In this document: positions 3,255-63,497 of the stretch, piece by piece | Layout of the letters: every line of letters begins with the position of its first letter | Position numbering within the stretch: position 1 is the first letter of the stretch | Source: a virus | Length of the DNA: 64,000 nt | Virus record (IMG/VR): IMGVR_UViG_3300036846_000489 | Coordinates: 1 to 64,000 of that record | Strand: one strand, 5' to 3' | Program-made: the position numbers and the translations under genes | The notes under the pieces: model-generated | Told to the model about the DNA's origin: nothing | Database searches by the model: none | The model's input: the letters and a program-made list of their open reading frames with translations, nothing else

Positions 3255-3505
3255 CCAAGGAAGAAGCGGAGGCAGAGCTATACCGGCGCAACCATGACAT
3301 CGCCGCTCGCACCGCGACTAGCATTATTCATGCCCTGACGTGGGGCGATATTCCAGATGCCTCGATTGATGCAATTCGTAATCTTGGCCGGCAAAAATGG
3401 TCATGGATACCCGGTGTCGGGAGAATGACGTTGCTCGATCTCGACAAGCTGGTCAGGTATTGGACCGACGAAGAGAAAATGCTGCTGGAACGGACACCGC
3501 CATGA
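3251..3505 (+). CDS. Hypothetical protein with helix-hairpin-helix-like end, 84 aa
   Basis: The start overlaps the previous stop by ATGA. The product is helical. Its C-terminal half (LGRQKWSWIPGVGRMTLLDLDKLV) has a G-x-G turn between helices, like a helix-hairpin-helix DNA-binding unit or the RNA polymerase alpha C-terminal domain. DNA binding is only inferred. It sits in a chain of four coupled small genes. Confidence 0.55.
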   Translation: MTKEEAEAELYRRNHDIAARTATSIIHALTWGDIPDASIDAIRNLGRQKWSWIPGVGRMTLLDLDKLVRYWTDEEKMLLERTPP

Positions 3506-3705: not shown

Positions 3706-3938
3706 GCGGCACGGAAACTCCCGTCGATCCCGACGATCTTGATCCCGACATCGAGGTTCCCGAAGGGACCGAGGTCGATGTGCCGCCAGAGGTATTGGCC
3801 GAGTTCGAGGCCGAACTCGACGCCTACGAGCAGGAATTGCGCGAGCAATTGGGCCAGCAGTTCGCCGACTACGAAGACATCGACCATCCCGAGGACGATG
3901 ACGACGAGGACATCGATTATCCCGAAGGGGAGAAATAA
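3702..3938 (+). CDS. Small very acidic protein, 78 aa
   Basis: The product is strongly acidic, with a Glu-rich middle helix and an Asp/Glu-rich end built around repeats of the type (E/D)DIDxPE. It starts by ATGA overlap and precedes the candidate scaffold gene. Acidic small proteins in head clusters may act during assembly or mimic DNA. No assignment is possible. Confidence 0.55.
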   Translation: MSGTETPVDPDDLDPDIEVPEGTEVDVPPEVLAEFEAELDAYEQELREQLGQQFADYEDIDHPEDDDDEDIDYPEGEK

Positions 3939-51942: not shown

Positions 51943-52017
51943 TTGGTGTCCTTTTCCTGTTTCCAGCGAAGTGCTGGTGCAGAGAGCCACGCCCCACGGG
52001 ACGCGCTCCCTGCATCA
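51943..52017 (-). promoter_or_regulatory. Intercistronic two-hairpin element, copy 1
   Basis: Closing helix TGATGCAGGGAGC / GCTCTCTGCACCA, starting with the stop codon of the upstream gene; apical stem CGTCC-CGTG-GGGCG; second hairpin CCAGC...GCTGG; then AAGGACACCAAATG exactly. Confidence 0.8.
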
Positions 52018-52266
52018 ATGCTTCGTCTCCGCAGCGTCTTTTAAGGCGGTGAGTTTGAGGATTAATTTCACTAGCATCGTCAATAGGCTCGACCGAATTT
52101 CTGCGGTGTCCTTGTCGTCTTCCCCATAATGCCCAGCAACCCATATGGCGGTTAGTTCGGCGAGAACTGCGCCCTGTATGGCTGAGGACTTGCCAGCCAG
52201 GATCGGCTTGATCTGACCGATCAGAGCGATTATTTCCTCTACGTCTTTCTTGGCGAAATCGGTCAT
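52015..52266 (-). CDS. Hypothetical helical protein, 83 aa
   Basis: The start overlaps the upstream stop (TGATG). Helical throughout (VEEIIALIGQIKPILAGKSSAIQGAVLAELTAIWVAGHYG). Function unknown. Its stop codon begins the first intercistronic element. Confidence 0.55.
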   Translation of the reverse strand: MTDFAKKDVEEIIALIGQIKPILAGKSSAIQGAVLAELTAIWVAGHYGEDDKDTAEIRSSLLTMLVKLILKLTALKDAAETKH

Positions 52267-53309
52267 CAACGCACCTCGTAGTGGGAACGGTTGGACTTGA
52301 AGCTCTTCCGCTGTTCCTCGGTAGCATTGACCAGTGTGTCCGCGATCCAGATCGACCGACCCGTGGCGTAGTTTCTCGGGTGTCCCATGCGGATGTGGAA
52401 CTGCGGACTTGCGTGGTGCCCGCCCAGACCTTCGCTCCGCTCCCGATGACCGCGTGCCAGAATAGCCGTGACATACGGCTCACTAAGCACCCGGTCGTAG
52501 TGCGGGATCGGCGGCTTCCGGCTTTTCATCCTGGCACGTTGCAATTTCTCCGGTGGCCGAACTGTCTCCCGATCCACCCCGCGCGTGGCGAGGATCATCA
52601 GGCAACAGATAATCGGGTCACCGATATTGCAGCTTGCCGCCTCGTGGGCCGATTGTCCGTTGTTCTGCAAGGCACGGAATTCATCGTCGGCGACGAACCG
52701 CAGAATAGACGGTGCCACTTGGGAAATATGGTCAACGCCAAGTTCCGGTGGCGGCACCATGAACATGCCACGGTCACCGATTACCAGGAGTTGCTGGTAA
52801 CCGAGCGTCAAGGGCTGAAGCTCGCAGACTTCGAAGGTCGTGTCGGAAGGACGATTGACCAGATAGACCGCTATCGCCTTGGTTTCTGGCAACACCACTG
52901 GCTGAGGGCCTGCGCCCTTCCAGATGAGGTTATGATCCCAAGTGTGGTAGCAAATCCACGGGTCGGAAAATGGGAAACCCAAGGCTCCCATATTCCACAT
53001 CTTCCCGCCACGCTTCGCGCATTCCGAGATGACCAAGTTCGGCAAGTGACCGAAGTCGATGACCCTGCCGGCTGTCACCGCATCGCGGCACCGAAGGGAG
53101 ATCAATTCAACCTCCCTCTGTGTCGAGGCGTATTCACGGCTCTCGGGAAGCAACCGCATGTTCGATGACTGGAAACCGGTGACGCGAAAATCGAGCACCG
53201 CGTCCCGCATCTGCGTGACGGTTGGTCTCCACTCCATGTCCAGCGACATAGTTAGCTCCTGCCCGAAGATCACCTGACCTTCGGGAGTTCTCATTAGTCT
53301 CGGTTCCAT
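52266..53309 (-). CDS. Hypothetical protein with HASPxFHxRxGH motif, 347 aa
   Basis: The C-terminal third has LSEPYVTAILARG, a GGHHASPQFHIRMGHPRNYATGRSIWIADTLV motif and a final Arg/Lys-rich end, shared in outline with the gene at 55480. Such proteins are widespread in phages with unknown role. The N-terminal 200 residues are mixed alpha/beta. Exact start-associated motif before the ATG. Confidence 0.6.
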   Translation of the reverse strand: MEPRLMRTPEGQVIFGQELTMSLDMEWRPTVTQMRDAVLDFRVTGFQSSNMRLLPESREYASTQREVELISLRCRDAVTAGRVIDFGHLPNLVISECAKRGGKMWNMGALGFPFSDPWICYHTWDHNLIWKGAGPQPVVLPETKAIAVYLVNRPSDTTFEVCELQPLTLGYQQLLVIGDRGMFMVPPPELGVDHISQVAPSILRFVADDEFRALQNNGQSAHEAASCNIGDPIICCLMILATRGVDRETVRPPEKLQRARMKSRKPPIPHYDRVLSEPYVTAILARGHRERSEGLGGHHASPQFHIRMGHPRNYATGRSIWIADTLVNATEEQRKSFKSNRSHYEVR

Positions 53310-53382
53310 TTGGTGTCCTTCTCTGTGTCCCCTGGTCGGGGCGAGGACAGCACCGATGCCGGCGCTGCCTTCGTCCAGATCA
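53310..53382 (-). promoter_or_regulatory. Intercistronic two-hairpin element, copy 2
   Basis: Closing helix TGATC/GACCA (one A-C mismatch), TGA being the upstream stop; inner stem GGCAGC..GCTGTC with tip GCCG-GCAT-CGGT; second hairpin CCCC-GACCA-GGGG; exact AAGGACACCAAATG. Confidence 0.8.
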
Positions 53383-53997
53383 GCGAATATCAACCTTTTT
53401 CGCCGCGCCTTGCTCAAGAGCGGCTTTGAGTATCTGTTGGGCGGCATCGCGTTCTTCGAAGGTTGGCTCCCTTTCCGGCAGAACCTCGGCAAAACTTCCC
53501 ATTATGAAACTCTGCGGGTCAGAGGTCTTTTCATCCTTTACCCCGGTGCATTTGCCTTTCGCGTTTCTTACGACTTCGGCTTGTGCCACGGCGGTAAGGC
53601 GTTCACCGGTATCGTCGTTGCGCCATATGATCTGTGCTATGACGACTTCTTGGCGATCTTCCCGTTGGCTCGGCATGACCTCGGGATATTCTGGGTCCGG
53701 TTCTCCTGGCTTGCTGCTCGCAATCCAGGCTTCGCCGATGAAGGCGACGGCGAACCCGTTGTCGGCTATACAGATGAGCCGGGCCATTTCCCGGTGTCCG
53801 CGTTTTTCCTTGTCGTCGTAGTTGTTCATTCCGCCGACACCTATCGGGGTAACTCTATGGGCGGCATGAACCACGAATAGCGGCATAAGGTGTCCTTCTT
53901 TGGTGATACACCGCTTGGCATATTCTAGATCAAGCCGAAGTTGTTTGGCATAATCGAACTTTCCCTTGGCGATGTTTGGTCCGGTTTTTCTCGGCAT
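53380..53997 (-). CDS. Hypothetical protein, 205 aa
   Basis: Start MPRKTGPNIAKGKF. The protein has MPLFVVHAAHRVTPIGVGGMNN and IADNGFAVAFIGEAWIA segments, suggesting an alpha/beta domain that may bind a small ligand. No family recognised. Start-associated motif AAGGACACCAGATG. Confidence 0.6.
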   Translation of the reverse strand: MPRKTGPNIAKGKFDYAKQLRLDLEYAKRCITKEGHLMPLFVVHAAHRVTPIGVGGMNNYDDKEKRGHREMARLICIADNGFAVAFIGEAWIASSKPGEPDPEYPEVMPSQREDRQEVVIAQIIWRNDDTGERLTAVAQAEVVRNAKGKCTGVKDEKTSDPQSFIMGSFAEVLPEREPTFEERDAAQQILKAALEQGAAKKVDIR

Positions 53998-54073
53998 CTG
54001 GTGTCCTTCCTGTTCTCCCCTGGTCGGGGCGGTGACAGCCACGGAATATCCTTGGCTGCCCCCGTCTGGATCA
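53998..54073 (-). promoter_or_regulatory. Intercistronic two-hairpin element, copy 3
   Basis: Closing helix TGATC/GACCA starting at the upstream stop; inner stem GGCAGCCA/TGGCTGTC with tip GGA-TAT-TCC; second hairpin CCCC-GACCA-GGGG; then AAGGACACCAGATG. Confidence 0.8.
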
Positions 54074-54235
54074 GGGCAAATACCTCTCAGCGACGTTCTC
54101 GCGCTTAATGAACTTCAGTAGGGCTGAATAGAATTCTTCCAGCCGTTGCTCGCCGTCCTGTTGCGACAGCCGTTGTTGCCAATGCTCCAGGAAATCCCAG
54201 GCATTGATCAACGCTCTTTCCCGGTCATAGAACAT
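54071..54235 (-). CDS. Hypothetical helical protein, 54 aa
   Basis: The start overlaps the end of the membrane protein upstream by 11 bases. The product (FYDRERALINAWDFLEHWQQRLSQQDGEQRLEEFYSALL) is a charged helix. Function unknown. Confidence 0.5.
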   Translation of the reverse strand: MFYDRERALINAWDFLEHWQQRLSQQDGEQRLEEFYSALLKFIKRENVAERYLP

Positions 54236-54458
54236 GAGCGGCCGCCAGCAGTAATCCAGCGACAATTCCGACCACCAGGAACAGGCTGAAGCCGCCCTGT
54301 CCTGGCCGTTCCCGATCCCGCCTTCTCTCGGTGATTTCGATGTTGACCACCACGCGCCGGGGCGGCCCGCCTGAAGGCGGGGGAGGATCGTTGTGGAAGG
54401 AATTGCCGTCCAGTAAGTAGTCGAATGAGCCACGCTTCGGCTCCTTGTTCTTCAGCAT
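54225..54458 (-). CDS. Tail-anchored membrane protein, 77 aa
   Basis: A soluble N-terminus with a PPPPSGGPPRR segment is followed by one C-terminal membrane helix (FSLFLVVGIVAGLLLAAAHVL). Topology suggests a cytoplasmic domain anchored in the inner membrane. It overlaps the gene before by seven bases. Function unknown. Confidence 0.55.
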   Translation of the reverse strand: MLKNKEPKRGSFDYLLDGNSFHNDPPPPSGGPPRRVVVNIEITERRRDRERPGQGGFSLFLVVGIVAGLLLAAAHVL

Positions 54459-54685
54459 ATGCCCAACTCCTTCTTGGTCCGATCAACCAGATTTTCCCAC
54501 TCCTTGCAGGCATCTTCCAGCCAGTTGATTGACTTGGCCGATCCCTGAAATTCGTAGGTATCGCGATCAAAGTGAAGACCGTTGAGCACCTCTCTTGCCG
54601 CCGCTCTCATCGAACAGGCAACATCATACATCAATTGCTTGTTCGCTTTCATAGCGACGGCCTGATCTTCAGTTCTTTTCGGCAT
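54452..54685 (-). CDS. Hypothetical helical protein, 77 aa
   Basis: Start MPKRTEDQAVAMKANK; helical with VACSMRAAAREVLNGLHFDRD. The start-associated motif is AAGGACACCAAACCC before ATG. Function unknown. Confidence 0.55.
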   Translation of the reverse strand: MPKRTEDQAVAMKANKQLMYDVACSMRAAAREVLNGLHFDRDTYEFQGSAKSINWLEDACKEWENLVDRTKKELGIC

Positions 54686-54770
54686 GGGTTTGGTGTCCTT
54701 CTCTATTCCCCGACCGACTGGTCGAGGCGACAACAGCACCGCGCAAGGCGGGCTGTTCCCGTCAGGATCA
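54686..54770 (-). promoter_or_regulatory. Intercistronic two-hairpin element, copy 4
   Basis: Closing helix TGATC/GACCA; inner stem AACAGC/GCTGTT with CCGC/GCGG tip; second hairpin CGACC-AGT-CGGTCG; motif AAGGACACCAAACCCATG. Here the upstream stop is about 20 bases before the element. Confidence 0.75.
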
Positions 54771-54790
54771 GCACGACAGTCTGGCGACCG

Positions 54791-55402
54791 TCAGTGGTAT
54801 CTCCGGTGGTTGCCGTCGGCGGACCAATTTACTTCGTGCCAGTCCGCGACCGGCCCAGGCACGGTCAGAACCGGCACGGCCAATGCCCCGATGATCCCAG
54901 CGGACGCCCTGCCCTCTACACCGGCCAGGACGATCAGCGTGCCACGAGTAAGGAGCGTGGCCTTTTGGTTCGGGAACAGAACCGGCTCCTTGGTATTATC
55001 GAGGCGATCAAGGCTGCTTTCGAATTCGGCAATTCCCTGTTCCCCCAGGCGGGTTGCCAGGGTGACAAGGGCGCCGTGGCTGTCAGCTTGAAGAATGAAA
55101 GACGCCATGGTTGACCACAGTGCTGCCCGGTCTTCCAGGTCGGTATTATTTATCTCTGGGACCGGGTCAGACCACCGAAGCATGTCGCAGATCATTCCCC
55201 GGTTGGGGGAGGCAAATACCACATGCCGCCCATAGCAGGCCGGGAGTGCTAGTTTCCCAGCTTCCTCTGAAGCGATGGCATCGACAACCTCCTGCAAGGT
55301 CGGAATACAGCGACGCAGTATTCGCTTCGTGCTCGGCTTTTGCGCGCGGCCTTTCACCACATCCTCTAAGGTCATGGTGGCGACGTGTTCTCCTAGTGTC
55401 AT
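54791..55402 (-). CDS. Hypothetical protein, 203 aa
   Basis: Starts MTLGEHVATMTLEDVVKGRA. It has an Ala/Leu-rich mixed fold (LWSTMASFILQADSHGALVTLATRLGEQGI, LLTRGTLIVLAGVEGRASAGIIGALAVPVL). No known family. Motif AAGGACACCAACCCATG. Confidence 0.55.
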   Translation of the reverse strand: MTLGEHVATMTLEDVVKGRAQKPSTKRILRRCIPTLQEVVDAIASEEAGKLALPACYGRHVVFASPNRGMICDMLRWSDPVPEINNTDLEDRAALWSTMASFILQADSHGALVTLATRLGEQGIAEFESSLDRLDNTKEPVLFPNQKATLLTRGTLIVLAGVEGRASAGIIGALAVPVLTVPGPVADWHEVNWSADGNHRRYH

Positions 55403-55482
55403 GGGTTGGTGTCCTTCTCCGTCCTCGACTTCTGGTCGAGGCGGCGACAGCGCGGCTTCCCGTGCTGTCTCCGTCCAGATCA
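55403..55482 (-). promoter_or_regulatory. Intercistronic two-hairpin element, copy 5
   Basis: Closing helix TGATC/GACCA starting at the upstream stop; inner stem GACAGC/GCTGTC; second hairpin CCTCGAC-CAGAA-GTCGAGG (7 bp), which takes up the GAC of the closing helix; motif AAGGACACCAACCCATG. Confidence 0.8.
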
Positions 55483-56637
55483 GGGTCGTCTCCTGATGAC
55501 GTCATAATCGTCGTGAACAACGAAGCCGCGTGAGGCGTCGCCGCGTTCATGCTCCGGTCGCCACCAGCGTTTGCCGCCACAGTCCGAACAGACCCAATTA
55601 TCCGGATCGTCCGGCCCAGCGTCCGGCCACGGCAGCCATTTCGGTGGACCGTGGTTCGGTTCGAAGTTGTGGACGCACCCGGCGATCCTGGAATAATCGC
55701 GGGCTTCCTTGTTGTGGCAGTAGTGACCACGAACTTCGTGCCGGCGACGCGGCACAGCGTCACCCGCCGGGGTGCCGATCAGCCTTAAGGTCGGCACCGG
55801 ATCGATCTCTATGGTCACCGTGGTATGTGCCATGTAGGCCCGGAACTTGCCGCTGATGAAGCCAGGGGCATTCGGCAGAGAGTTCCGGTAGCTGGTCAGC
55901 GACGGCCGGTTGAGCATCAGCAGGATCGCGATGATCGTCCGAAAGTCGCCAATCGTGCCACGTGCCATGGACGCCATGCCGCCGTCAGCGGTCCATTTAT
56001 GGTAGGATGGATGGGCCGGATTGAGCGGCGTCTGTTCCATGACGTTGAACTCTCGCAGCACGCGCCGTTCGTCGTTGGTCAGGTTGTCCCAGGTTGATCC
56101 CCACATAAGCATGTCGAGGCTCATCCGAGAGCACCCGCACAGACGGGCGAATTCCAACTGATCGTCTATCGGCCATTCGGTTCTTAGTCGATACTGCATT
56201 CCGGTCACCTGCGGGTCAGTGACCGGGTTGGCCACCGTGCCGCCGCAGATGGTATTGATCCGATTATGGTCGATCAGATACCCGACCGTGTGATCGGCAC
56301 TGTCAAGTTCGCCATACCAGCCGGTATTTTCATACCGTCCTGGATCAGCGTCGCGTAGCACCTTCCAGTAAATCCACGAAGGCCACTCTATCCAGGTGAC
56401 CTCGAAAGGTGGTCTGGCGAAGCCGTGTTCCCGCACCAGAAGTGAAGGAATATCACGCACGACCTGGGCAATACGCTCCGCGGCCCGCTCGTCAAAGACG
56501 AACTTATGGGCGGCACGCATGGAGCGTTGAAGCATGTCCATGGTTTTCGGATGGACGAACCGCTCCTTGGCCGAAAACTTATGAGCCAAAAAGCGGTCAG
56601 CCAGTATTGGCCCCCGCTTGGTAGGTGTTTTGGCCAT
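55480..56637 (-). CDS. Hypothetical protein, 385 aa, related in outline to the gene at 52266
   Basis: The middle has MSLDMLMWGSTWDNLTNDERRVLREFN and a C-terminal RRRHEVRGHYCHNKEARDY segment that corresponds to the GHHASP...RMGHPRN region of the 347-aa protein. A CxxC pair near the end (WVCSDCGG) may bind zinc. Role unknown; both may act on the host early in infection. Confidence 0.55.
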   Translation of the reverse strand: MAKTPTKRGPILADRFLAHKFSAKERFVHPKTMDMLQRSMRAAHKFVFDERAAERIAQVVRDIPSLLVREHGFARPPFEVTWIEWPSWIYWKVLRDADPGRYENTGWYGELDSADHTVGYLIDHNRINTICGGTVANPVTDPQVTGMQYRLRTEWPIDDQLEFARLCGCSRMSLDMLMWGSTWDNLTNDERRVLREFNVMEQTPLNPAHPSYHKWTADGGMASMARGTIGDFRTIIAILLMLNRPSLTSYRNSLPNAPGFISGKFRAYMAHTTVTIEIDPVPTLRLIGTPAGDAVPRRRHEVRGHYCHNKEARDYSRIAGCVHNFEPNHGPPKWLPWPDAGPDDPDNWVCSDCGGKRWWRPEHERGDASRGFVVHDDYDVIRRRP

Positions 56638-56709
56638 GTTGTGTCCTTCTGTTCTCCCCGAGCATGTCTGATCGAGGCGGAAACAGCCATGCTGCTTCCG
56701 TCCGGATCA
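56638..56709 (-). promoter_or_regulatory. Intercistronic two-hairpin element, copy 6
   Basis: Closing helix TGATC/GATCA (fully paired); CGG/CCG; inner stem AAGCAGC-ATG-GCTGTTT; second hairpin CCTCGA...TCGGGG; motif AAGGACACAACATG. It follows the terminator of the PEP-CTERM gene. Confidence 0.8.
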
Positions 56710-56712
56710 GGC

Positions 56713-56738
56713 AAAGAAAAGGGGAGCCGAAGCTCCCC
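56713..56738 (-). terminator. Rho-independent terminator behind the PEP-CTERM gene
   Basis: On the minus strand GGGGAGC-TTCG-GCTCCCC followed by TTTTCTTT. A perfect 7-bp stem with a UUCG loop, 32 bases after the gene. It partly insulates this gene from those downstream. Confidence 0.85.
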
Positions 56739-56769
56739 ACAAAGTCTGGGTCGGATATTTTCTGCCGGT

Positions 56770-57408
56770 CTACGCCGACCGACGCCGCAACAGGGTCAGG
56801 CCGATCAGGCCCATCCCGAGGATCACAAGCGAGGCAGGCTCCGGCACGGCCGTCGCCGAAGCACTGATGTCACCCGCAAAGCTGGCATTGAAGGCGCCAA
56901 TTGTGCTGCCGTCCAAGGCAAGGGTGGGCAGCAGATTGGTGAACGCCAGATTGAACGAGCTTGGGGGCACCAACTCGTTGGCCGGAATGACGTTGCTGGC
57001 CAACGTGAGGCTCTCCGGGGGGTTGTTGACATTGACTGTCAGACCCGGCCCACCATTTGCCCCAAAGGCGGCATCGGTGAACGTGCCAGAGAGGAAGTTA
57101 CCCGTGCATCCGGCAGCACTTGAGATACAGAAGCTTCCCGAGTAATGCTGGATGATGTTGCCCGCTACCGTGATTGCCGCATCGATAGAATGCGCGGAGA
57201 GGGTCATCATGGCGCCAGGAATGGCACCGAGAATACCGCCGCCCAGCAAAGCTAGCTGGTTGGTGTAACTGATATTCGTCACGGTGCCATTGTCGGTCGC
57301 TACCACGGTATTCGTCGTGGCCTCCTGAGCGAAAGTCGTAAGCAAGGCGGCTTCCGCTACTGTCGGCAAGGCCACGGCGATGGTGGAGGCAAGCAAAAGT
57401 GCCTTCAT
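56770..57408 (-). CDS. Secreted PEP-CTERM protein
   Basis: The protein has a clear signal peptide (KALLLASTIAVALPTVAEA, cleavage after A-E-A) and a C-terminal VPEPASLVILGMGLIGLTLLRRRSA: the PEP motif, a membrane helix and an Arg cluster that define a PEP-CTERM exosortase substrate. The 165-aa middle is Thr/Ser/Asn-rich and beta-like with one Cys pair (FCISSAAGC). PEP-CTERM proteins are exported and processed by host exosortase, often with biofilm polysaccharide. A phage-borne one is unusual. It is followed by a strong terminator. Confidence 0.85.
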   Translation of the reverse strand: MKALLLASTIAVALPTVAEAALLTTFAQEATTNTVVATDNGTVTNISYTNQLALLGGGILGAIPGAMMTLSAHSIDAAITVAGNIIQHYSGSFCISSAAGCTGNFLSGTFTDAAFGANGGPGLTVNVNNPPESLTLASNVIPANELVPPSSFNLAFTNLLPTLALDGSTIGAFNASFAGDISASATAVPEPASLVILGMGLIGLTLLRRRSA

Positions 57409-57513
57409 CTGGTTTCCTTTCGGGTTGGTGTGAACACTCAGTCTCCCCGGCTTTGCTGGCCGAGGCCGGAACGCCCGCCACAGTTTCCTGTGGGGACGCT
57501 CCGGTCAAGGTCA
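57409..57513 (-). promoter_or_regulatory. Intercistronic two-hairpin element, copy 7
   Basis: Closing helix TGACC/GGCCA (A-C mismatch); CCGGA/TCCGG; apical CCACAG-GAAA-CTGTGG with a GNRA tetraloop; second hairpin CCTCGGC...GCCGGGG. The start motif differs: CACACCAACCC, then AAAGGAAACCAGATG. Confidence 0.75.
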
Positions 57514-57518
57514 GATTT

Positions 57519-57728
57519 CTACCGTCTCCGGTGGCTGGCATCTATAGGTTCGATGTCGGTCTCAACCTGACGGGGATCGCGGCCCTGTTGTATCCGCGAT
57601 ATCCTGGCGGGCAGGATGATATCCCGATTGCAGTCGTCGCAGCACCGGCCATGGTTGATCGGCTCCGCGTTGTTCCCGAACCGGGTGTATGGCCGCCCGC
57701 AGATCGTGCAGGCTCCGTTCTCATCCAT
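57519..57728 (-). CDS. Zinc-binding phage protein (CTICGRPYT...CCDDCN), 69 aa
   Basis: CTICGRPYTRFGNNAEPINHGRCCDDCN gives two Cys pairs for a zinc knuckle; this motif set is common in small phage proteins. The rest is helical and basic. Role unknown. Its start lies within the end of the upstream gene. Confidence 0.65.
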   Translation of the reverse strand: MDENGACTICGRPYTRFGNNAEPINHGRCCDDCNRDIILPARISRIQQGRDPRQVETDIEPIDASHRRR

Positions 57729-58224
57729 CCTTGTTCTCCTCTTCCTTGCGCGGCATTCCGGAAAGAAGCTGACCGTAGGTGTGGAGCACCTCGGTCACCG
57801 GCTTGCCGTCTCGGAAGAACGTGATGGTTCCCGCCGCCTCTGAGGCGCGAGAGTTGCCCCAGGCGTCGAACTCGGCACGATCCATCCAAATGATGTTCCG
57901 ACGCAGCCATTCGACGGTGACCACCGGATCGACCGTGTAGTAGCCTCCCGGCACGTCTTCGTCTTCGACCTCTTCGCCCACAACCACACCGTTGCCGGCC
58001 ATTGGCTGGTCGGTGCGGAATGCGCAGAAGAAAAAGTGCATGGTTGGTTTCAGCAAGCCTTCCTCGTCCACGAACATCACATCTCCAGACGGGAACCGAA
58101 AGGCCGCTTCGATCCAGCCACCGATATAGTCACCGACGGTAGGAAGCTCGCCTTCGGCACTTTGTATGCGATATTCGACCTCACGGATTTCCCGCTTCAC
58201 GGCATCAATGAGAATTGCCTTCAT
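57721..58224 (-). CDS. DUF3846-like protein, 167 aa
   Basis: The N-terminus KAILIDAVKREIREVEYRIQSAEGELPTVGDYIGGWIEAAFRF and then MFVDEEGLLKPTMHFFF matches the DUF3846 pattern (YIGG-IE, DEEG-LL), found in phages and plasmids with unknown function. The rest holds VDPVVTVEWLRRNI and a terminal Lys/Glu stretch. Confidence 0.65.
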   Translation of the reverse strand: MKAILIDAVKREIREVEYRIQSAEGELPTVGDYIGGWIEAAFRFPSGDVMFVDEEGLLKPTMHFFFCAFRTDQPMAGNGVVVGEEVEDEDVPGGYYTVDPVVTVEWLRRNIIWMDRAEFDAWGNSRASEAAGTITFFRDGKPVTEVLHTYGQLLSGMPRKEEENKDG

Positions 58225-58315
58225 GGGTATTTGGTGTCCTTCCATTCAGTTTCCCCAGGCTGGCTGAGGCGAGGACAGCCACCGGCCTGAGCCGGCGCTG
58301 CCTTCGTCTTAGTCA
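58225..58315 (-). promoter_or_regulatory. Intercistronic two-hairpin element, copy 8
   Basis: Closing helix TGACT/AGCCA, a compensatory change relative to TGACC/GGCCA; inner stem GGCAGC/GGCTGTC with GCCGGC/GCCGGT; second hairpin CCTCAG-CCAGC-CTGGGG; motif AAGGACACCAAATACCCATG. Confidence 0.8.
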
Positions 58316-58494
58316 GGGTCTATCGGCTCGTCGTGATCGTAGTTCGGATCGGTCAGAACCTCTGGCCGGAACGCGGCCAGCTTCTCCTTTTCGCATTTCC
58401 CGCACATGTATCCGAGAGGAATTCCCCTCGCATCCAGTCCGACCCACGGCCACTCGCCGCTGCCGCACGGGCATTCAGTCAGCATCGCCATCAT
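58309..58494 (-). CDS. Small zinc-binding protein, 61 aa
   Basis: Cys pairs (ECPCGSG and YMCGKC) and a central WPWVGLDARGIPLG; likely a small zinc ribbon with an acidic tail. ATGA overlap with the upstream gene. Function unknown. Confidence 0.55.
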   Translation of the reverse strand: MMAMLTECPCGSGEWPWVGLDARGIPLGYMCGKCEKEKLAAFRPEVLTDPNYDHDEPIDPD

Positions 58495-58778
58495 GGTTCT
58501 CCGTCGTGGCCAACGGCTTTCTGGTCCGCCACGCCATCGACGGTGCGATGGCGTCCGGCGTATTCCCACTGGACCTGATGGAAGCGTTCGATATTCGCGA
58601 TGTCACGAATATCCAACTTGAACCCCAGAGCCAAGTAGATTAGTTCCAAATCGCCTTGGTTGAGCCGGTCGAGGTTGGGCAAGGTGGCATGAGGGATGCC
58701 ACAGTGCTCAATGATCCACTCACGGATGACGCGGACCAGTTCGTATTTGTCTGGCCGCATCTTGGGAGGAAGCGACAT
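58491..58778 (-). CDS. Hypothetical protein, 95 aa
   Basis: Start chosen at 58778, which overlaps the stop of a 12-codon leader peptide. The protein (KYELVRVIREWIIEHCGIPHATLPNLDRLNQGDLELIYLALGFKLDIRD) is helical and well folded. Function unknown. Confidence 0.55.
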   Translation of the reverse strand: MSLPPKMRPDKYELVRVIREWIIEHCGIPHATLPNLDRLNQGDLELIYLALGFKLDIRDIANIERFHQVQWEYAGRHRTVDGVADQKAVGHDGEP

Positions 58779-58816
58779 CACGCTGCCTCCCGAGGGTCTT
58801 CAGTATTTATCGGCAT
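58778..58816 (-). CDS. 12-aa leader peptide
   Basis: An exact AAGGACACCAAATG motif leads not into the gene but into a 12-codon frame (MPINTEDPREAA) whose stop overlaps the real start (TGATG). It may set coupled, lowered translation of the downstream gene. Confidence 0.5.
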   Translation of the reverse strand: MPINTEDPREAA

Positions 58817-58897
58817 TTGGTGTCCTTTCCAAAGTCCTCGGCGAACTGGCCGAGGCGGCGGTAGCCACGACAAGCGCAGCTACCCCCGTCCAGGTCA
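58817..58897 (-). promoter_or_regulatory. Intercistronic two-hairpin element, copy 9
   Basis: Closing helix TGACC/GGCCA including the upstream stop; inner stem GGTAGC/GCTACC; second hairpin CCTCGGC...GCCGAGG (7 bp); exact AAGGACACCAAATG. Confidence 0.8.
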
Positions 58898-59113
58898 GAT
58901 CAACTTGATCTCGACAGAAGTGACCGTGTAGGGGCCGTTGCAGCCAAGGCCGGGAGAGCCATACACGGCCTTCCCGTGGGTCAGTTCCCAGAAGCTTTTC
59001 TGCCGAGCCTGAAGGTAGACATCATCAAGCTCACCTTCGCAGATCGACTTTGTCTCCCAGGTCTGGCCCTTGGCAGCGGTGCCACGAAGGGTGCAGTTGT
59101 AGAGGCGGATCAT
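58895..59113 (-). CDS. Hypothetical protein, 72 aa
   Basis: The product (MIRLYNCTLRGTAAKGQTWETKSICEGELDDVYLQARQKSFWELTHGKAVYG) appears to be a compact beta-rich protein. ATGA overlap with the gene before. Function unknown. Confidence 0.55.
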   Translation of the reverse strand: MIRLYNCTLRGTAAKGQTWETKSICEGELDDVYLQARQKSFWELTHGKAVYGSPGLGCNGPYTVTSVEIKLI

Positions 59114-59445
59114 GCCGGCCTCCTTATGAACTCTCGGCCCGGCCTGGACCGAATACCATGGATCAGATCGTCATGTTCTGTAGCGAACCGAACCATGGCA
59201 CGGCGAAGGTCCAGCATCACGTCGCAGATTTTCCGCAGGCGATCCACCTCTTTCTGATCCATCGGAAACTCCGACAACTGCGCCATGGCATCACAGAGGT
59301 TCGATACCATCGCGTTCATCCGGCCCAGGATCAGGTCTTTCTGATCGGTCTCTTTCTGGTATTTCGCCATCAACAAAGCCATGCTGGAACGCGCTTCTCG
59401 CGCTTCAGCCTTCGCCTGTTGCAGCGGTGTAGGGTTTCGAGGCAT
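59110..59445 (-). CDS. Hypothetical helical protein, 111 aa
   Basis: Mostly charged helix (QQAKAEAREARSSMALLMAKYQKETDQKDLILGRMNAMVSNLCDAMAQ), possibly a coiled coil. Exact start-associated motif before ATG. Function unknown. Confidence 0.55.
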   Translation of the reverse strand: MPRNPTPLQQAKAEAREARSSMALLMAKYQKETDQKDLILGRMNAMVSNLCDAMAQLSEFPMDQKEVDRLRKICDVMLDLRRAMVRFATEHDDLIHGIRSRPGREFIRRPA

Positions 59446-59523
59446 TTGGTGTCCTTCCGTTCTCCAGCGCAAACGCTGGTGCAAAGAGCCACGGGCCATT
59501 GCTGACCCGCGCTCCTTGCATCA
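59446..59523 (-). promoter_or_regulatory. Intercistronic two-hairpin element, copy 10
   Basis: Closing helix TGATGCAAGGAGC / GCTCTTTGCACCA from the upstream stop. Relative to copy 1 one G-C pair is replaced by A-T, a compensatory change. Second hairpin CCAGCG-TTTG-CGCTGG; exact AAGGACACCAAATG. Confidence 0.85.
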
Positions 59524-59991
59524 AGGTTTGTTTGCTTCTCGCGCTATCCGCTCGTCTTCCTTCGTCGCATAATGAGGAAGTTCGCGCAGAGAAAGGCGGG
59601 GCCTTCCAGGCTTTTTTGGCCCAGGTGTTCTTTCCCGTTTCTTTTCCGGTGCTCGCTTTCCCAGCCTATGGGCTTTGGTAGGCGCAAAAAGTGTGAGTTT
59701 GCCGTAGACAAACCGTCCTTCGGTATCGAATTGACGAATGACTTCTGGCCAGTGGTTGACGTATCTCAGCCAGTGTTTTGCCCCTTCTTCTAGCACATAA
59801 GCTCGGTATTTATAGACTATCGCTGCCCGAGCGCCTTCGCGCATTAACGAACGAGCCCAAGGGCAGTCGCACGGATCGTTGGGGCAGGCGCCCTTGATAT
59901 CAACAAGAAGAGCCACGACAGGTCTATTCTTCTTCGCGTCCACTATGGGTAGTCCTAGAAAGGCTGGATGGTTTCTCATCATGGATGCCAT
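59521..59991 (-). CDS. Hypothetical basic protein with Cys cluster, 156 aa
   Basis: The N-terminal half has PVVALLVDIKGACPNDPCDCPWARSLMREGARAAIVYKYRAYVLEEG, a mixed fold with CPND-PCDCPW that might hold a metal. The last 50 residues are very basic (KKRERTPGPKKPGRPRLSL). It may bind nucleic acid. No family recognised. Confidence 0.55.
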   Translation of the reverse strand: MASMMRNHPAFLGLPIVDAKKNRPVVALLVDIKGACPNDPCDCPWARSLMREGARAAIVYKYRAYVLEEGAKHWLRYVNHWPEVIRQFDTEGRFVYGKLTLFAPTKAHRLGKRAPEKKRERTPGPKKPGRPRLSLRELPHYATKEDERIAREANKP

Positions 59992-60082
59992 TTGGTGTCC
60001 TTCTCTGTTTCCTGGTCCGGGTCTGGCCCAGGCGGAAACAGAAACGGCCCCCGAAAGGGCCGCTCTGCTACCGTCACGGTCA
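59992..60082 (-). promoter_or_regulatory. Intercistronic two-hairpin element, copy 11
   Basis: Closing helix TGACC/GGCCA, a few bases after the upstream stop; apical CGGCCC-TTTC-GGGGGCCG; second hairpin CTGGG-CCAGA-CCCGG; exact AAGGACACCAAATG. Confidence 0.8.
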
Positions 60083-60084
60083 GA

Positions 60085-60351
60085 TCATCCCCGCCGCGTG
60101 ATGGTCACGTCGTATCCCTTGTCCACGATTTTCTGGATCAGAATTTCCAGGTCTTCGTGATCGTCGGGGAAAAGCATGTGCAACAGCTTTTTCACCTTGG
60201 CGGGACGCGGCTGGGCGTTGCCGTTCTCGATCTGCGACAGATAGCCATTGGACAATCCGGCACGTTCCGCGAGAGCGGTCTGAGACAAACCGCGTTCCTC
60301 ACGGGCTTGCCTGATCTTTTCGCCCAGGTCGGGGCTGTCGAAATTCACCAT
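60085..60351 (-). CDS. XRE-family helix-turn-helix protein, 88 aa
   Basis: A textbook XRE domain: LGEKIRQAREERGLSQTALAERAGLSNGYLSQIENGNAQPRPAKVKKL. It binds DNA and may act as a repressor of this arm. Start at 60351 with GGAGGTTGACC just upstream. Not preceded by the intercistronic element. Confidence 0.8.
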   Translation of the reverse strand: MVNFDSPDLGEKIRQAREERGLSQTALAERAGLSNGYLSQIENGNAQPRPAKVKKLLHMLFPDDHEDLEILIQKIVDKGYDVTITRRG

Positions 60352-60353
60352 GG

Positions 60354-60569
60354 TCAACCTCCTGTCTTCCACCATCGGCCGTGATCGCCCAGAGTGTATT
60401 TCTGGCCGACCCCGACGCCGAGGCCAAAGCCGAACAGAAGATGGCATCTCAGGCACATCATTGCCCACGGCCCCCGACGGGTTGCTCCATCAACAAAGTC
60501 GGTGTTGAGGGAGCCGCGGCAGATGGCACAGGCAACAGGCTTGCTGCCTTGCCAGTAAAGCTTGGTCAT
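60354..60569 (-). CDS. Zinc-finger-like protein, 71 aa
   Basis: CAICRG and MMCLRC pairs suggest a zinc ribbon. A Gly-rich hydrophobic stretch (LLFGFGLGVGVG) follows. Exact start-associated motif. Function unknown. Confidence 0.55.
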   Translation of the reverse strand: MTKLYWQGSKPVACAICRGSLNTDFVDGATRRGPWAMMCLRCHLLFGFGLGVGVGQKYTLGDHGRWWKTGG

Positions 60570-60652
60570 TTGGTGTCCTTTCCGTTTCCCCCGATCCGCT
60601 GATCGAGGCGGTGGCAGCACCGCACAGCGGCGGGCTGCCCCCGTCCGGATCA
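60570..60652 (-). promoter_or_regulatory. Intercistronic two-hairpin element, copy 12
   Basis: Closing helix TGATC/GATCA (fully paired); inner stem GGCAGC/GCTGCC with CCGC/GCGG; second hairpin CGATC...GATCG; exact AAGGACACCAAATG. Confidence 0.8.
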
Positions 60653-60654
60653 GA

Positions 60655-61209
60655 TCATTCCATCCAGAAACAATTATACCGTTCGCGTTTCGCCATCCGG
60701 CACTTCAGGTTGTTCGCCTCGGCGATCCCTCGCAGATAGGCGAACCACTTCGCACTGGTCTGACCCGTGTGATCGCTGAGTTCCTTTCTCGAAACCCCCT
60801 GCGGCCGGCGAGATTGCTCGACTGCCCAATCGACGAACCCGGCGGGCAGTTTGGAGAGGCTGGGACCGCCCTTGATCTCCGGCCCCCGGTATTCCCCAGG
60901 CTCGACTTCTTCCGGCTTGGGAGAAGCCTCAGCGGCCTTCCTGGCAGCCTTCTTCGGCGCCGGCGCTTTCTTCGCGGTCGGTGCCGCCGCTTTCTTCTTC
61001 TTCGCAGCCTCGATACGCACGACGTTGCTTCCTTCATCGTCAGGAAGCGGACGATCAATCAGGCACCACTTGCCTTCAGCATTCTGTCCCGGCATGTGGT
61101 CGGCACCGAGCAGACGCAGACCGGAGCGCTTGAACTCCTTCTCCATGTCTTCCTTGCTGTCCCATGTCCGAGTTTGTGCCTCGACAATGGTCATGCGTGT
61201 AGCGGCCAT
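60655..61209 (-). CDS. Lys/Ala-rich protein with winged-helix-like end, 184 aa
   Basis: An N-terminal beta-alpha unit (MTIVEAQTRTWDSKEDMEKEFKRSGLRLLG), a histone-H1-like Lys/Ala/Pro linker (AKKKKAAAPTAKKAPAPKKAA) and a C-terminal unit with VSRKELSDHTGQTSAKWFAYLRGIAEANNL. The end matches that of the next gene, making them paralogues. DNA binding or nucleoid-like packing is plausible. Confidence 0.6.
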   Translation of the reverse strand: MAATRMTIVEAQTRTWDSKEDMEKEFKRSGLRLLGADHMPGQNAEGKWCLIDRPLPDDEGSNVVRIEAAKKKKAAAPTAKKAPAPKKAARKAAEASPKPEEVEPGEYRGPEIKGGPSLSKLPAGFVDWAVEQSRRPQGVSRKELSDHTGQTSAKWFAYLRGIAEANNLKCRMAKRERYNCFWME

Positions 61210-61313
61210 GAATGTGTCCTTCTGTCCGTGGTGGAAATTCCCGGGACTGGCCCAGGCGGAAAAAGCGTGGGGCAGAGGTTTCCCCCTGCCCCGAGTTGTT
61301 TCCGTCACGGTCA
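61210..61313 (-). promoter_or_regulatory. Intercistronic two-hairpin element, copy 13
   Basis: Closing helix TGACC/GGCCA; CGGAAA/TTTTCCG; apical GGGGCAG/CTGCCCC; second hairpin CTGGG-CCAGT-CCCGG; motif AAGGACACATTCATG. Confidence 0.75.
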
Positions 61314-61319
61314 GTCAGA

Positions 61320-61739
61320 TCAGGCGCGCTTGCGCACTGCGATCTTGGTCAGCTTGAACACCGGCTTGCCGCCAGAGACGCTGTAGGCGAGGCCGTTGCT
61401 CGTGGCCAACCGTTCTACCCATGGCCGCCACGCCACTTGGTTCTGTCCGGCTCGGCGCGCCAGCATGGCCCGCGTTACCCCTCCCGGACTGGACGCCATC
61501 TCCAATACCATCTTCGCGAAATCCTTCGGCAGGATGGTATCGTTGACCGGCGGCATCGGCGTTCTGGCTTTTCTCGGCGCTCTGGCTTTTCTTTCTGCCC
61601 GAGGCTTCCGAGCCGACTTCTTCGCTTCCCGGCCCGGTTTCGGGCCTTGACGCCCCCCGGCCACTACCTTGAACTTCTCTGGCACCGCAGCCATGCGGGC
61701 TGAGGCGCTGTTCTTTTTCTTGATTACGGTCTTAGCCAT
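61320..61739 (-). CDS. Lys/Arg/Ala-rich protein with winged-helix-like end, 139 aa
   Basis: The N-terminal half is strongly basic (KPGREAKKSARKPRAERKARAPRKA). The C-terminal half (ILPKDFAKMVLEMASSPGGVTRAMLARRAGQNQVAWRPWVERLATSNGL) is a paralogue of the end of the gene before it. Probably DNA-binding. Ribosome site AGAGGGTTAAG rather than the usual motif. Confidence 0.6.
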   Translation of the reverse strand: MAKTVIKKKNSASARMAAVPEKFKVVAGGRQGPKPGREAKKSARKPRAERKARAPRKARTPMPPVNDTILPKDFAKMVLEMASSPGGVTRAMLARRAGQNQVAWRPWVERLATSNGLAYSVSGGKPVFKLTKIAVRKRA

Positions 61740-61853
61740 TGTCTTAACCCTCTTGTTCGAAGACGCACGCCCGCAGTCGGGACGTGCCCCCGGCATACTG
61801 GCCGAGGCCGCAGCACCACCACGGTTTCCCGTGGGGTGCTCCGGTCCGGGTCA
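61740..61853 (-). promoter_or_regulatory. Intercistronic two-hairpin element, copy 14
   Basis: Closing helix TGACC/GGCCA from the upstream stop; AGCACC/GGTGCT; apical CCACGG-GAAA-CCGTGG with GNRA loop; second hairpin CCTCGGC...GCCGGGG. The usual start motif is missing; AGAGGG precedes the ATG. Confidence 0.75.
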
Positions 61854-62036
61854 GGTATCGAAGTCGCGGCGATGCGCCGCTAGGATTTCCGCGATTTCCT
61901 CTGATGGGATCGGCTCGGCCCGATAGAGGATATCGATGTCCGGCACTTTGCTGATGATCATCCGGTAGCCGGGTGGCATTTTCTCCAGCAACATGAGAAT
62001 GGTTGCTGCCACGTCGGCATTTTCATCGTTTACCAT
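61851..62036 (-). CDS. Hypothetical protein, 61 aa
   Basis: A small mixed fold (VAATILMLLEKMPPGYRMIISKVPDIDILYRAEPIPSEEIAEILAAH). Overlaps the end of the upstream gene. Function unknown. Confidence 0.55.
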   Translation of the reverse strand: MVNDENADVAATILMLLEKMPPGYRMIISKVPDIDILYRAEPIPSEEIAEILAAHRRDFDT

Positions 62037-62328
62037 CCGTTTCTCCTTGCCCTAAAAAGCGAAAGCTGAGACCGTGATTGCCGTCGTTCTCCCCGACAAA
62101 GGATATCGCTGGATGCCCCTCGATCAACAGAAGGTCTTCGTAGAAGCTGTCCCATTCGTCGATCACGGTATCCATCTCTTCCCCTTCTTTCGGGTAGTTC
62201 TCGGCTATGTAGGCGTCGAGCGACATCTGCCGAGCCAATAATACGGCGTTGCCTTCTTCCTGGGCATTCACCCGGATCGCTTGCATGTAGCCTTCGTCTC
62301 CTATCAGGATGACGGTGTAGGGTTGCAT
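62023..62328 (-). CDS. Hypothetical acidic protein, 101 aa
   Basis: Starts MQPYTVILIGDEGYMQAIRVNAQEEGNAV after an exact start-associated motif. Acidic with a VIDEWDSFYEDLLLIEGHPA segment. Likely a small alpha/beta protein; function unknown. Confidence 0.55.
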   Translation of the reverse strand: MQPYTVILIGDEGYMQAIRVNAQEEGNAVLLARQMSLDAYIAENYPKEGEEMDTVIDEWDSFYEDLLLIEGHPAISFVGENDGNHGLSFRFLGQGETDGKR

Positions 62329-62403
62329 TTGGTGTCCTTTCTCCCGAACCATTCTGGCCCAGGGAGAAACGTCGTCCGCAGACGACGCTTCCCTCACAGG
62401 TCA
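62329..62403 (-). promoter_or_regulatory. Intercistronic two-hairpin element, copy 15
   Basis: Closing helix TGACC/GGCCA from the upstream stop; long arm GAGGGAA..TTCTCCC with CGTCGTC-TGCG-GACGACG; second hairpin around loop AGAAT; exact AAGGACACCAAATG. Confidence 0.8.
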
Positions 62404-62652
62404 GGCTTCTTGGGGTTCGCCAAACAATTCCTTCCACATCTCGACCGTGGAGAACTGTTCGACCAGCTTCTTCGCCTCGTCCTCTGGCTGCGGCTCTATG
62501 CTCATGGTTTCGTAGCTCTTGACGAAGAGGTAGAACCGGGAGCTTGCGGTGCGATACAGGATCGCATGATCCCAGTGGAGATACTGGCCGAGGTCGCAGA
62601 TCGGCTTTCCCTTATCCGTATCGTAGAGAACGCCGTCGATTATTTTCTGCAT
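62401..62652 (-). CDS. Hypothetical protein, 83 aa
   Basis: MQKIIDGVLYDTDKGKPICDLGQYLHWDHAILYRTASSRFYLFVKSYE: compact beta-rich with an acidic helical end. Preceded by a start motif with an insertion (AAGGACGGACACCAAATG). Function unknown. Confidence 0.55.
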   Translation of the reverse strand: MQKIIDGVLYDTDKGKPICDLGQYLHWDHAILYRTASSRFYLFVKSYETMSIEPQPEDEAKKLVEQFSTVEMWKELFGEPQEA

Positions 62653-62738
62653 TTGGTGTCCGTCCTTCTGTCTCCCGTGCCAACCACTGGCCCAGGCGAG
62701 GACGGCCACGGTTCCCCGCGCCGCCTTCGTCTTGGTCA
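62653..62738 (-). promoter_or_regulatory. Intercistronic two-hairpin element, copy 16
   Basis: Closing helix TGACC/GGCCA from the upstream stop; inner stem GGCGGC/GCCGTC; weak second hairpin around loop AGT; motif AAGGACGGACACCAAATG. Confidence 0.75.
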
Positions 62739-63032
62739 GATAAGTGGTTTCCATCCACCCCATGGGGGAAGCTCTTCGCCCCACCGTTTCTTCGGCTTCA
62801 CCCTCTTGCTGCGTGCGGTCACCGCCCGATCATGGGCGGCTCCCAACGCGGCATCCGACATTGGTTTCTCTTTCGCCCGAGACCAGCTATCGCTTGGCCC
62901 CACACGAAGCCGAACCTCTGGCACGCTTCCATAGGGCAGACCCTTCGCCTTGGATTTCCGGTTGGGATTTCCCTGACGAAGGAACTTCCTGCCCTTCGGA
63001 TACGACCAGTTAATCCGAGACTTTTTCTTCAC
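62736..63032 (-). CDS. Hypothetical basic protein, 98 aa
   Basis: GTG start overlapping the gene before by 23 bases. Very basic (KKKSRINWSYPKGRKFLRQGNPNRKSK) with a WGEELPPWGGWKP end. Could bind nucleic acid. No family recognised. Confidence 0.5.
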   Translation of the reverse strand: MKKKSRINWSYPKGRKFLRQGNPNRKSKAKGLPYGSVPEVRLRVGPSDSWSRAKEKPMSDAALGAAHDRAVTARSKRVKPKKRWGEELPPWGGWKPLI

Positions 63033-63198
63033 TCGGAATAGGCTCGAATATGACCGACCACTCGGGGTTTGATCCTTCCGGGTTGCATCTGATTACGATC
63101 TGCTCTCCGGGAGAAAGGTCGTCGAGAAACTCGACCACCCGCTGAATGATGGCGAACCTTGGTTCTTCGTATTCGCGCTTGTTGGCGACTTCTTCCAT
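63010..63198 (-). CDS. First well-supported gene of the right-arm operon, 62 aa
   Basis: MEEVANKREYEEPRFAIIQRVVEFLDDLSPGEQIVIRCNPEG: small acidic alpha/beta protein. The start motif is AAGGACAGACACATG, which can pair with a complementary stretch in the leader (63319-63332). Function unknown. Confidence 0.55.
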   Translation of the reverse strand: MEEVANKREYEEPRFAIIQRVVEFLDDLSPGEQIVIRCNPEGSNPEWSVIFEPIPSEEKVSD

Positions 63199-63318
63199 GT
63201 GTCTGTCCTTCCGTTCACACTCGTGCTCTGTCTTGGGGGCTTGCAACCCTCGGCAACCTTTCGGCTGACGGCGACATTCCGACCGACCCCCGTAGGGGCC
63301 GGGCGGTGAACAGAGGTT

Positions 63319-63332
63319 AAGGACACACCAAA
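63319..63332 (-). promoter_or_regulatory. Anti-start-motif in the operon leader
   Basis: On the minus strand TTTGGTGTGTCCTT, complementary to AAGGACACCAAA except for a two-base bulge (6 + 6 bp). It can mask the AAGGACA of the first gene, helped by a GTTCAC/GTGAAC helix, and in principle pair with the other copies. Confidence 0.5.
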
Positions 63333-63497
63333 TTTTCGTATGAATACAACCGAGACTGTTTCGCCCTTCCCGCCCGCAAGATCGCCTCACGGCTACCCTT
63401 ACGACTTGTTCTCAGGCTAGGCTGTATCCACACGCCCGTATCCATTCACAATGCTGGCTTACACGCTGACGCCAGCAGACATCCGACAACCCTGCTC

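Follow-up and report, generated by a model that had tools for sequence, protein, structure and literature searches.

What this locus asks is why a phage should place the same folded RNA, in varying sequence, at one gene junction after another of a single operon. The window analysed here comprises bases 1-64000 of a 75,088-base IMG/VR virus record, and the operon in question occupies its minus strand between about 63.3 and 51.4 kb. A preliminary description, made from the sequence, had proposed that sixteen of its junctions carry one structured intercistronic element. That description assigned the element no function and noted neither the competition between its hairpins nor the ribozymes in slots of relatives nor the leader complementary to the ribosome-site module. 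It is well supported that these elements form a structured-RNA family between the translation units of the operon, and RNA structure is clearly what is selected. With regard to function, we give a probability of roughly 0.5 to the reading that they are RNA-processing sites at which a nuclease, probably an RNase III-like one, cuts the message; both the cutting and the nuclease are what we infer from the pattern set out below.

Sixteen copies at gene junctions

The copies span 51,943-62,740, are all on the minus strand and all stand at gene junctions, with a fixed orientation relative to transcription, each filling the space between a stop codon and the following start codon. An element separates almost all gene blocks of the operon, and each one introduces a block of one to three genes in which neighbours overlap or lie almost end to end, with no element between them; the first gene of the operon has its ATG at 63198. 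The proposed number of copies holds, since a covariance model seeded with 14 of the window copies recovers all 16, detecting the two left-out copies with E values of 4e-7 and 3e-5 and finding no further sense-strand copy in the 64 kb window. Numbering runs from the low-coordinate end (copy 1 at 51943-52020, copy 16 at 62653-62740). The copies are given below from copy 16 downwards, with the bit scores of their R1/R2 model hits; copies 1 and 10 are outside the seed.

62653-62740, minus strand: copy 16 (e2), 75/72 bits; the TGA of the helix is the stop codon of the gene ending at 62736
62329-62405, minus strand: copy 15 (e3), 50.6/60.4 bits
61777-61855, minus strand: copy 14 (e4), 50.9/51.3 bits; an additional hairpin lies between this copy and the start codon
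61212-61315, minus strand: copy 13 (e5), 46.1/48.4 bits; degenerate upper stem
60570-60654, minus strand: copy 12 (e6), 85.4/84.3 bits
59992-60084, minus strand: copy 11 (e7), 73.7/72.8 bits
59446-59531, minus strand: copy 10 (e8), TGATGCA/TGCACCA subtype, non-seed; 40.2 bits, E 4e-7
58817-58899, minus strand: copy 9 (e9), 75.6/72.8 bits
58231-58317, minus strand: copy 8 (e10), TGACT/AGCCA subtype; 77.3/74.7 bits
57425-57515, minus strand: copy 7 (e11), 59.7/57.3 bits
56638-56711, minus strand: copy 6 (e12), 66.8/65 bits; shortest stem, with a terminator-like hairpin upstream
55406-55484, minus strand: copy 5 (e13), 71.4/70.5 bits
54690-54772, minus strand: copy 4 (e14), 78.4/74.3 bits
53998-54075, minus strand: copy 3 (e15), 72.9/65.2 bits
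53310-53384, minus strand: copy 2 (e16), 71.4/67.9 bits
51943-52020, minus strand: copy 1 (e17), TGATGCA/TGCACCA subtype, non-seed; 32.8 bits, E 3e-5

Anatomy of the element

The first and longer hairpin (H1) is built, in order, of a closing helix P1 (CTGAYC/GRYCAG), a 4x4 internal loop, a helix P2 of three pairs, a 1x1 mismatch, a helix P3 (about GGCAGC/GCTGTC, often with one bulged base after it) and an upper stem that varies between copies and in several of them is capped by a GNRA or UNCG loop. With P1 closed, H1 has 17-27 pairs (median 21), or about two helical turns. The internal loop holds an unpaired A14 (36 of 36 copies) and C73 (36 of 37), besides which we found no shared sequence motif; the TGATGCA subtype lacks this loop and has no unpaired motif in common with the other copies. 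The strand that links P2 to the 3' arm of P1 (CCTC, CCTG or CCCC) forms the start of the second hairpin (H2), whose stem or loop absorbs that arm partly or wholly in all copies inspected except a few in one relative. Downstream of H2 come a purine-rich spacer and then the start-codon module (GAACAGAG)AAGGACACCAAATG, present here as AAGGACACCAAATG or its relatives. What follows H1 and H2 is sequence of the GAAACAGAAGGA type, not the T run that comes after the GC-rich hairpin of an intrinsic terminator; near the elements the minus strand has just two terminator-like sites, located upstream of copy 6 and at the apex of copy 13.

Much of the layout first proposed for these junctions stands, and some of it needs amending. 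The counts of closing-helix types were exact (TGATC/GACCA four, TGATC/GATCA two, TGACC/GGCCA seven, TGACT/AGCCA one and TGATGCA/TGCACCA two), as was the G-C to A-T exchange between copies 1 and 10 (GCAG..CTGC versus GCAA..TTGC), but 14 of the 16 helices contain an A.C mismatch in which the A of TGA stands opposite C. The hairpin was said to begin at or just after the upstream stop codon: the TGA of the helix is the true stop in nine of the 16 copies, the stop lies 4-8 nt off in five, and in the other two it is 23 and 63 nt upstream of the helix. Both hairpins of the proposed pair are indeed present; they do not form completely together, because the 5' arm of H2 overlaps the 3' arm of H1.

Covariation and the folding strand

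That selection acts on the structure of the RNA rather than on the DNA sequence had been argued from a handful of paired changes, and it is now borne out by covariation above all shuffles in three sets of copies. Among the 14 seeds, 89.1% of cells are paired, compared with 80.9% in shuffles, two-sided changes occur at 11 of 19 pairs, and the covariation score of 0.347 (0.199 in shuffles) is reached by none of 500 shuffles; the number of further pair types does not rise above shuffles in this set. In the set of 37 copies drawn from four phages, pairing stands at 94.4% of cells (75.5% when shuffled), two-sided changes extend to 16 of 19 pairs and the score is 0.550 against 0.198, again with 0/500 shuffles reaching it and with slid versions at or below 0.158. 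The 19 copies of a phage that stood outside model building pair at 89.5% (68.8% shuffled) with a score of 0.502, slid versions at or below 0.092 and 0/500 on every measure, where it has to be borne in mind that the alignments of 37 and 19 copies were fitted to the structure, which favours that structure. The stop codon itself covaries, TGA occurring with CA and TAA with TA; the pair concerned is G-C in 31 copies and A-U in five, and TAA is the true stop in three.

The paired positions also report on which strand folds. They contain 48 G-U against 7 A-C combinations, a count that excludes the two A.C positions 5/79 and 14/73, which are invariant or nearly so and can be read either way. This excess of G-U over A-C indicates that the folding strand is the messenger, and not a DNA cruciform or the antisense strand.

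Related phages with and without the element

Alongside the covarying pairs, related phages that bear the element are present. About 70 copies occur across six records, the window phage included: on the sense strand there are 16 in the window phage, 13 in G001 (75,005 bases), 11 in G004 (73,959 bases), 9 in G010 (a 15,153-base fragment) and about 20 in G120 (a 64,791-base record), and a fragment of 9,274 bases has one further copy at its edge. The terminases of G001, G004 and G010 are 73-80% identical to that of the window phage, whilst G120 was reached via the gene after copy 2 (40%). Orthologous genes mostly retain the element in front of them, with some gains and losses and with altered gene order.

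Other terminase relatives, up to 74% identical, have no element although orthologues of operon genes are present, and a search of terminase relatives as whole records located it in just one fragment beyond the main set. Two such element-free relatives, G002 and G003 (L106-L109), have orthologues of some operon genes; in G002 these genes abut or overlap. With these two records, gain or loss of the element can be studied by comparison. Wider searches gave nothing more: the operon had no megablast match among 50,697 phage records, three broad DNA patterns run in viral_contigs returned mainly chance matches, which the model shows to be without elements, a terminase search of bacterial genomes yielded ten distant relatives and no close prophage, and 100 genomes related to one of those distant relatives contained no element.

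Ribozymes in the same slots and a processing model

In relatives, a few of the junctions are occupied by a ribozyme or ribozyme candidate where the element would otherwise stand, and the window has one candidate near the start of the operon.

L102 1699-1766 (G001): twister-P5 ribozyme, Rfam score 40.9 against a cut-off of 37.6 bits, E 2e-5
L103 3084-3163, 3340-3417 and 3735-3807 (G004): type II hammerhead candidates with complete GAAA, GUC and CUGAUGA cores
63220-63283, minus strand: candidate twister ribozyme (type P1) immediately ahead of the first operon gene, RF03160, 32 bits, E 0.0014; its UAA core deviates at the first base

The slots share one layout of stop codon, RNA, AAGGA and ATG. 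The twister of G001 lies between a stop at L102 1695 and an ATG at 1804. The three hammerhead candidates of G004 occupy consecutive junctions and all lead into a AACAGAAAGGA module and ATG; in two of them the upstream stop TGA is inside stem II (3340-3342 and 3735-3737), and the third begins with the base that follows the stop codon. One of the three was detected through its core motif, which had no match in shuffles. Clustered prophage hammerheads that flank single genes or short blocks have been proposed to cut long phage transcripts (PMC3088659), and the candidates here are similarly found in the same operons and slots as the element; unlike those, the 16 copies have no hammerhead core and belong to no Rfam family.

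The presence of ribozymes in a few slots of relatives suggests that these spacers mark cuts of one message into gene-sized messages. In the model that we propose, H1 would be the substrate of a double-strand-specific nuclease, probably the host RNase III, which would break up the polycistronic message so that each piece carries one to three genes. After the cut, the 3' strand of P1 and the strand preceding it could fold into H2, which would then become the 5' hairpin of the next message, directly before a ribosome site of the standard AAGGACACC kind. Were the cut to fall midway along H1, H2 would start only a few bases from the new 5' end, where, to judge by how bacterial mRNA decays, it may protect the message. 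Cutting at junctions would explain together why the elements share one orientation, why H1 is as long as it is, why structure is conserved rather than sequence, why ribozymes occur in the slots and how the units are bounded.

RNase III is the best candidate for the nuclease because of the precedent of T7, whose RNase III hairpins divide the message into mono- and dicistronic mRNAs (PMC4858673). As with the T7 sites, several oriented structured hairpins stand between the genes of a phage operon, more than one to a transcript, and the double-stranded region is about two helical turns long. T7 differs in having five early sites, where there are 9-20 copies per operon here; in our elements, moreover, the stop codon is often in the helix, a second hairpin competes, and the cut is a proposal.

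Several points weigh against this model. The H1 of the shortest copies has only 17-18 pairs, and the refolding after the cut is itself a modelled step. Two of the hammerhead candidates score 27.6 and 25 bits in Rfam, below the cut-off of 37, and the twister candidate of the window, at 32 bits, is under the gathering score of 67.2. Finally, two types of element in one operon need not have a common function.

Competition between the hairpins and the possibility of a switch

The competition between P1 and H2 is counted in favour of the processing model, and it bears equally upon the main rival, in which the element is a ribosome-responsive translational switch or insulator and no cut is made. A terminating ribosome would hold P1 open and force H2, P1 would close when no ribosome is there, and the state adopted would set translation of the next unit. 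Each H2 fits its own 5' arm, the native total being -372.9 kcal/mol compared with -294.4 (sd 11.0) when the 3' arms were permuted within each phage, a total that 0/500 permutations reach; taken phage by phage, the effect is clear in the window phage and G001 (0/500 lower), less marked in G004, and not seen in G010 with its six copies. P1 is likewise adapted. The energies of the two states are balanced, with a mean difference of -0.6 kcal/mol (range -14 to +7) and the H2 state preferred in 18 of 37 copies. Such balanced competition is what a switch would call for, as is the stop codon inside or beside P1 in most copies, with its compensated TGA to TAA changes. At least two copies of G004 have H2 displaced downstream, so strict exclusivity of P1 and H2 is not universal.

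What counts against a switch is that its two states would leave the next gene equally open: predicted accessibility in the P1 and H2 states is 0.62 and 0.61 for the ribosome site, and 0.56 and 0.57 for the start codon. In seven window copies, TGA is kept in P1 though it is not the stop codon, and ribozymes in the same slot are left unexplained. We regard a switch as unlikely. Three related ideas were rejected: a classic riboswitch acting by masking of the ribosome site, given the equal accessibility; a true pseudoknot of P1 and H2, whose strands overlap or leave no linker; and stop-codon read-through into the next gene, as the frames are random (13/14/9 over 36 junctions).

Other explanations

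A somewhat weaker case can be made for a binding site of a phage or host protein, or for an antitermination or Rho-blocking RNA like put of HK022, which would sustain transcription of the operon or co-regulate its units. The put RNA likewise has about 70 nt and two stem-loops and occurs in phage early transcripts (PMC9378689), the unpaired positions A14 and C73 are invariant or nearly so, and untranslated gaps would otherwise be exposed to Rho. Two put sites per genome act near promoters, whereas our elements number one per junction, and instead of two stem-loops forming together near early promoters there are hairpins that compete for one strand. Orthologous genes in element-free relatives simply abut, and the failure to find a shared motif beyond A14/C73, together with the TGATGCA subtype without that internal loop, also speaks against this reading.

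It is very improbable that the element is itself a new class of self-cleaving ribozyme. Sharing operons and slots with twister and hammerhead can indicate such a class, but none of the 16 copies has an Rfam match that would betray a hammerhead or twister core, the TGATGCA subtype has no unpaired motif in common with the rest, and two conserved unpaired bases compare poorly with the ten highly conserved nucleotides of pistol (PMC4604425). A DNA-level role as a recombination or cassette border (attC-like folding) for gene shuffling, suggested by elements that remain at junctions whilst gene order varies and by one that keeps its terminator-like neighbour although the PEP-CTERM gene before it has moved, is the least credible of all, given an orientation always with transcription, a G-U bias that reflects sense-strand folding and the lack of an integrase among the part of the proteins that was scanned.

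A leader that could pair with the ribosome sites

Before its first gene the operon holds a segment with complementarity to the module in front of the units.

63306-63336, minus strand: leader segment TTTGGTGTGTCCTTAACCTCTGTTCAC, complementary to the ribosome-site module before the units

When 26-nt windows were scanned across 14 kb of the sense strand, TTTGGTGTGTCCTTAACCTCTGTTCAC gave the best mean duplex energy of all (-19.1, against a background of -8.8, sd 2.5). A leader of this kind is found at the operon 5' end in all five phages in which the operon start is covered; in G001, G004, G010 and G120 it is similar, with changes that partly track each phage's own module. For G120, a leader-like match at 56.3 kb was dropped as being away from the operon, and L369 973-1003 was preferred. 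A second, stronger module-complementary segment of G004 lies past the last element (L103 13231-13266). Letter shuffles fail to reach the native energy for the window phage, for G010 and for this second G004 segment, but that of the leader of G004, which is rich in pyrimidines, is attained by them. When each leader was crossed with each module, a phage's own pairing was best in its row in three of five cases and best in its column in three of five. These data support base pairing with the module, short of proof.

The segment might instead be the ribosome site of a divergent gene, and in G010 a divergent frame of 151 codons starts 66 nt away. This is less likely because divergent frames are poor or absent in most of the phages; in G000 just one divergent start falls within 75 nt, and its frame, at long spacing, has 26 codons. 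In the window, the twister candidate sits between the leader and the ribosome site of the first gene, which the leader could otherwise cover. One may imagine a one-transcript regulon in which ribozymes and elements cut the message and the freed anti-ribosome-site leader acts in trans, pairing with the ribosome site of each unit and setting its translation, but we hold this scheme to be doubtful.

Genes beside the elements

The operon includes a gene for a PEP-CTERM protein (56770-57408, minus strand), which is followed by the terminator-like hairpin at 56738-56721; the gene has moved in G001, where the pairing of terminator-like hairpin and element is nonetheless kept. At 58780-58818 (minus strand), the ribosome site after copy 9 belongs to a frame of 12 codons (MPINTEDPREAA), whose end and the start of the next gene overlap in TGATG; this may be a leader peptide or a case of coupling. 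A DUF3846 protein (57724-58224, minus strand; Pfam E 6e-8) is among the few operon products that match a family, and its gene is kept in two relatives with the element upstream in both. A tRNA gene (L365 12676-12746) is present in a phage record that also encodes an orthologue of the gene behind copy 3.

Novelty and meaning

The preliminary description knew of no such element in proteobacterial phages, and that view is upheld in so far as a gathering-threshold Rfam search of the window returned nothing, the family is not in Rfam 15, and no report of it appears in the searchable literature, which leaves outside most subscription papers, including a 2017 survey of 224 candidate RNAs. In position the elements resemble the start-associated sequences (SAS/ESAS) of Cluster K mycobacteriophages, which also occur in many copies among right-arm non-structural genes, just before start codons, with an inverted repeat upstream of the conserved start-associated sequence. 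The 13-bp SAS GGGATAGGAGCCC is absent from the start codons here, where the module AAGGACACCAAATG or its relatives stand instead, and whilst the authors of the ESAS study report little support for mRNA hairpins (PMC3203893), compensatory changes are abundant in our elements. The RNA family is thus new, although the type of role, intercistronic processing in phages, is already known.

The family covaries strongly, reaches 20 copies in an operon and stands beside known self-cleaving ribozymes or, in some slots, gives way to them; through it one can test how small ribozymes and processing hairpins serve phages. If the leader does pair as proposed, it would add a layer of operon-wide control that, as far as our searches show, has not been described. 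If the elements are cut, then independent solutions to one task, namely a nuclease hairpin, twister and hammerhead, would have come to occupy the same positions in related operons.

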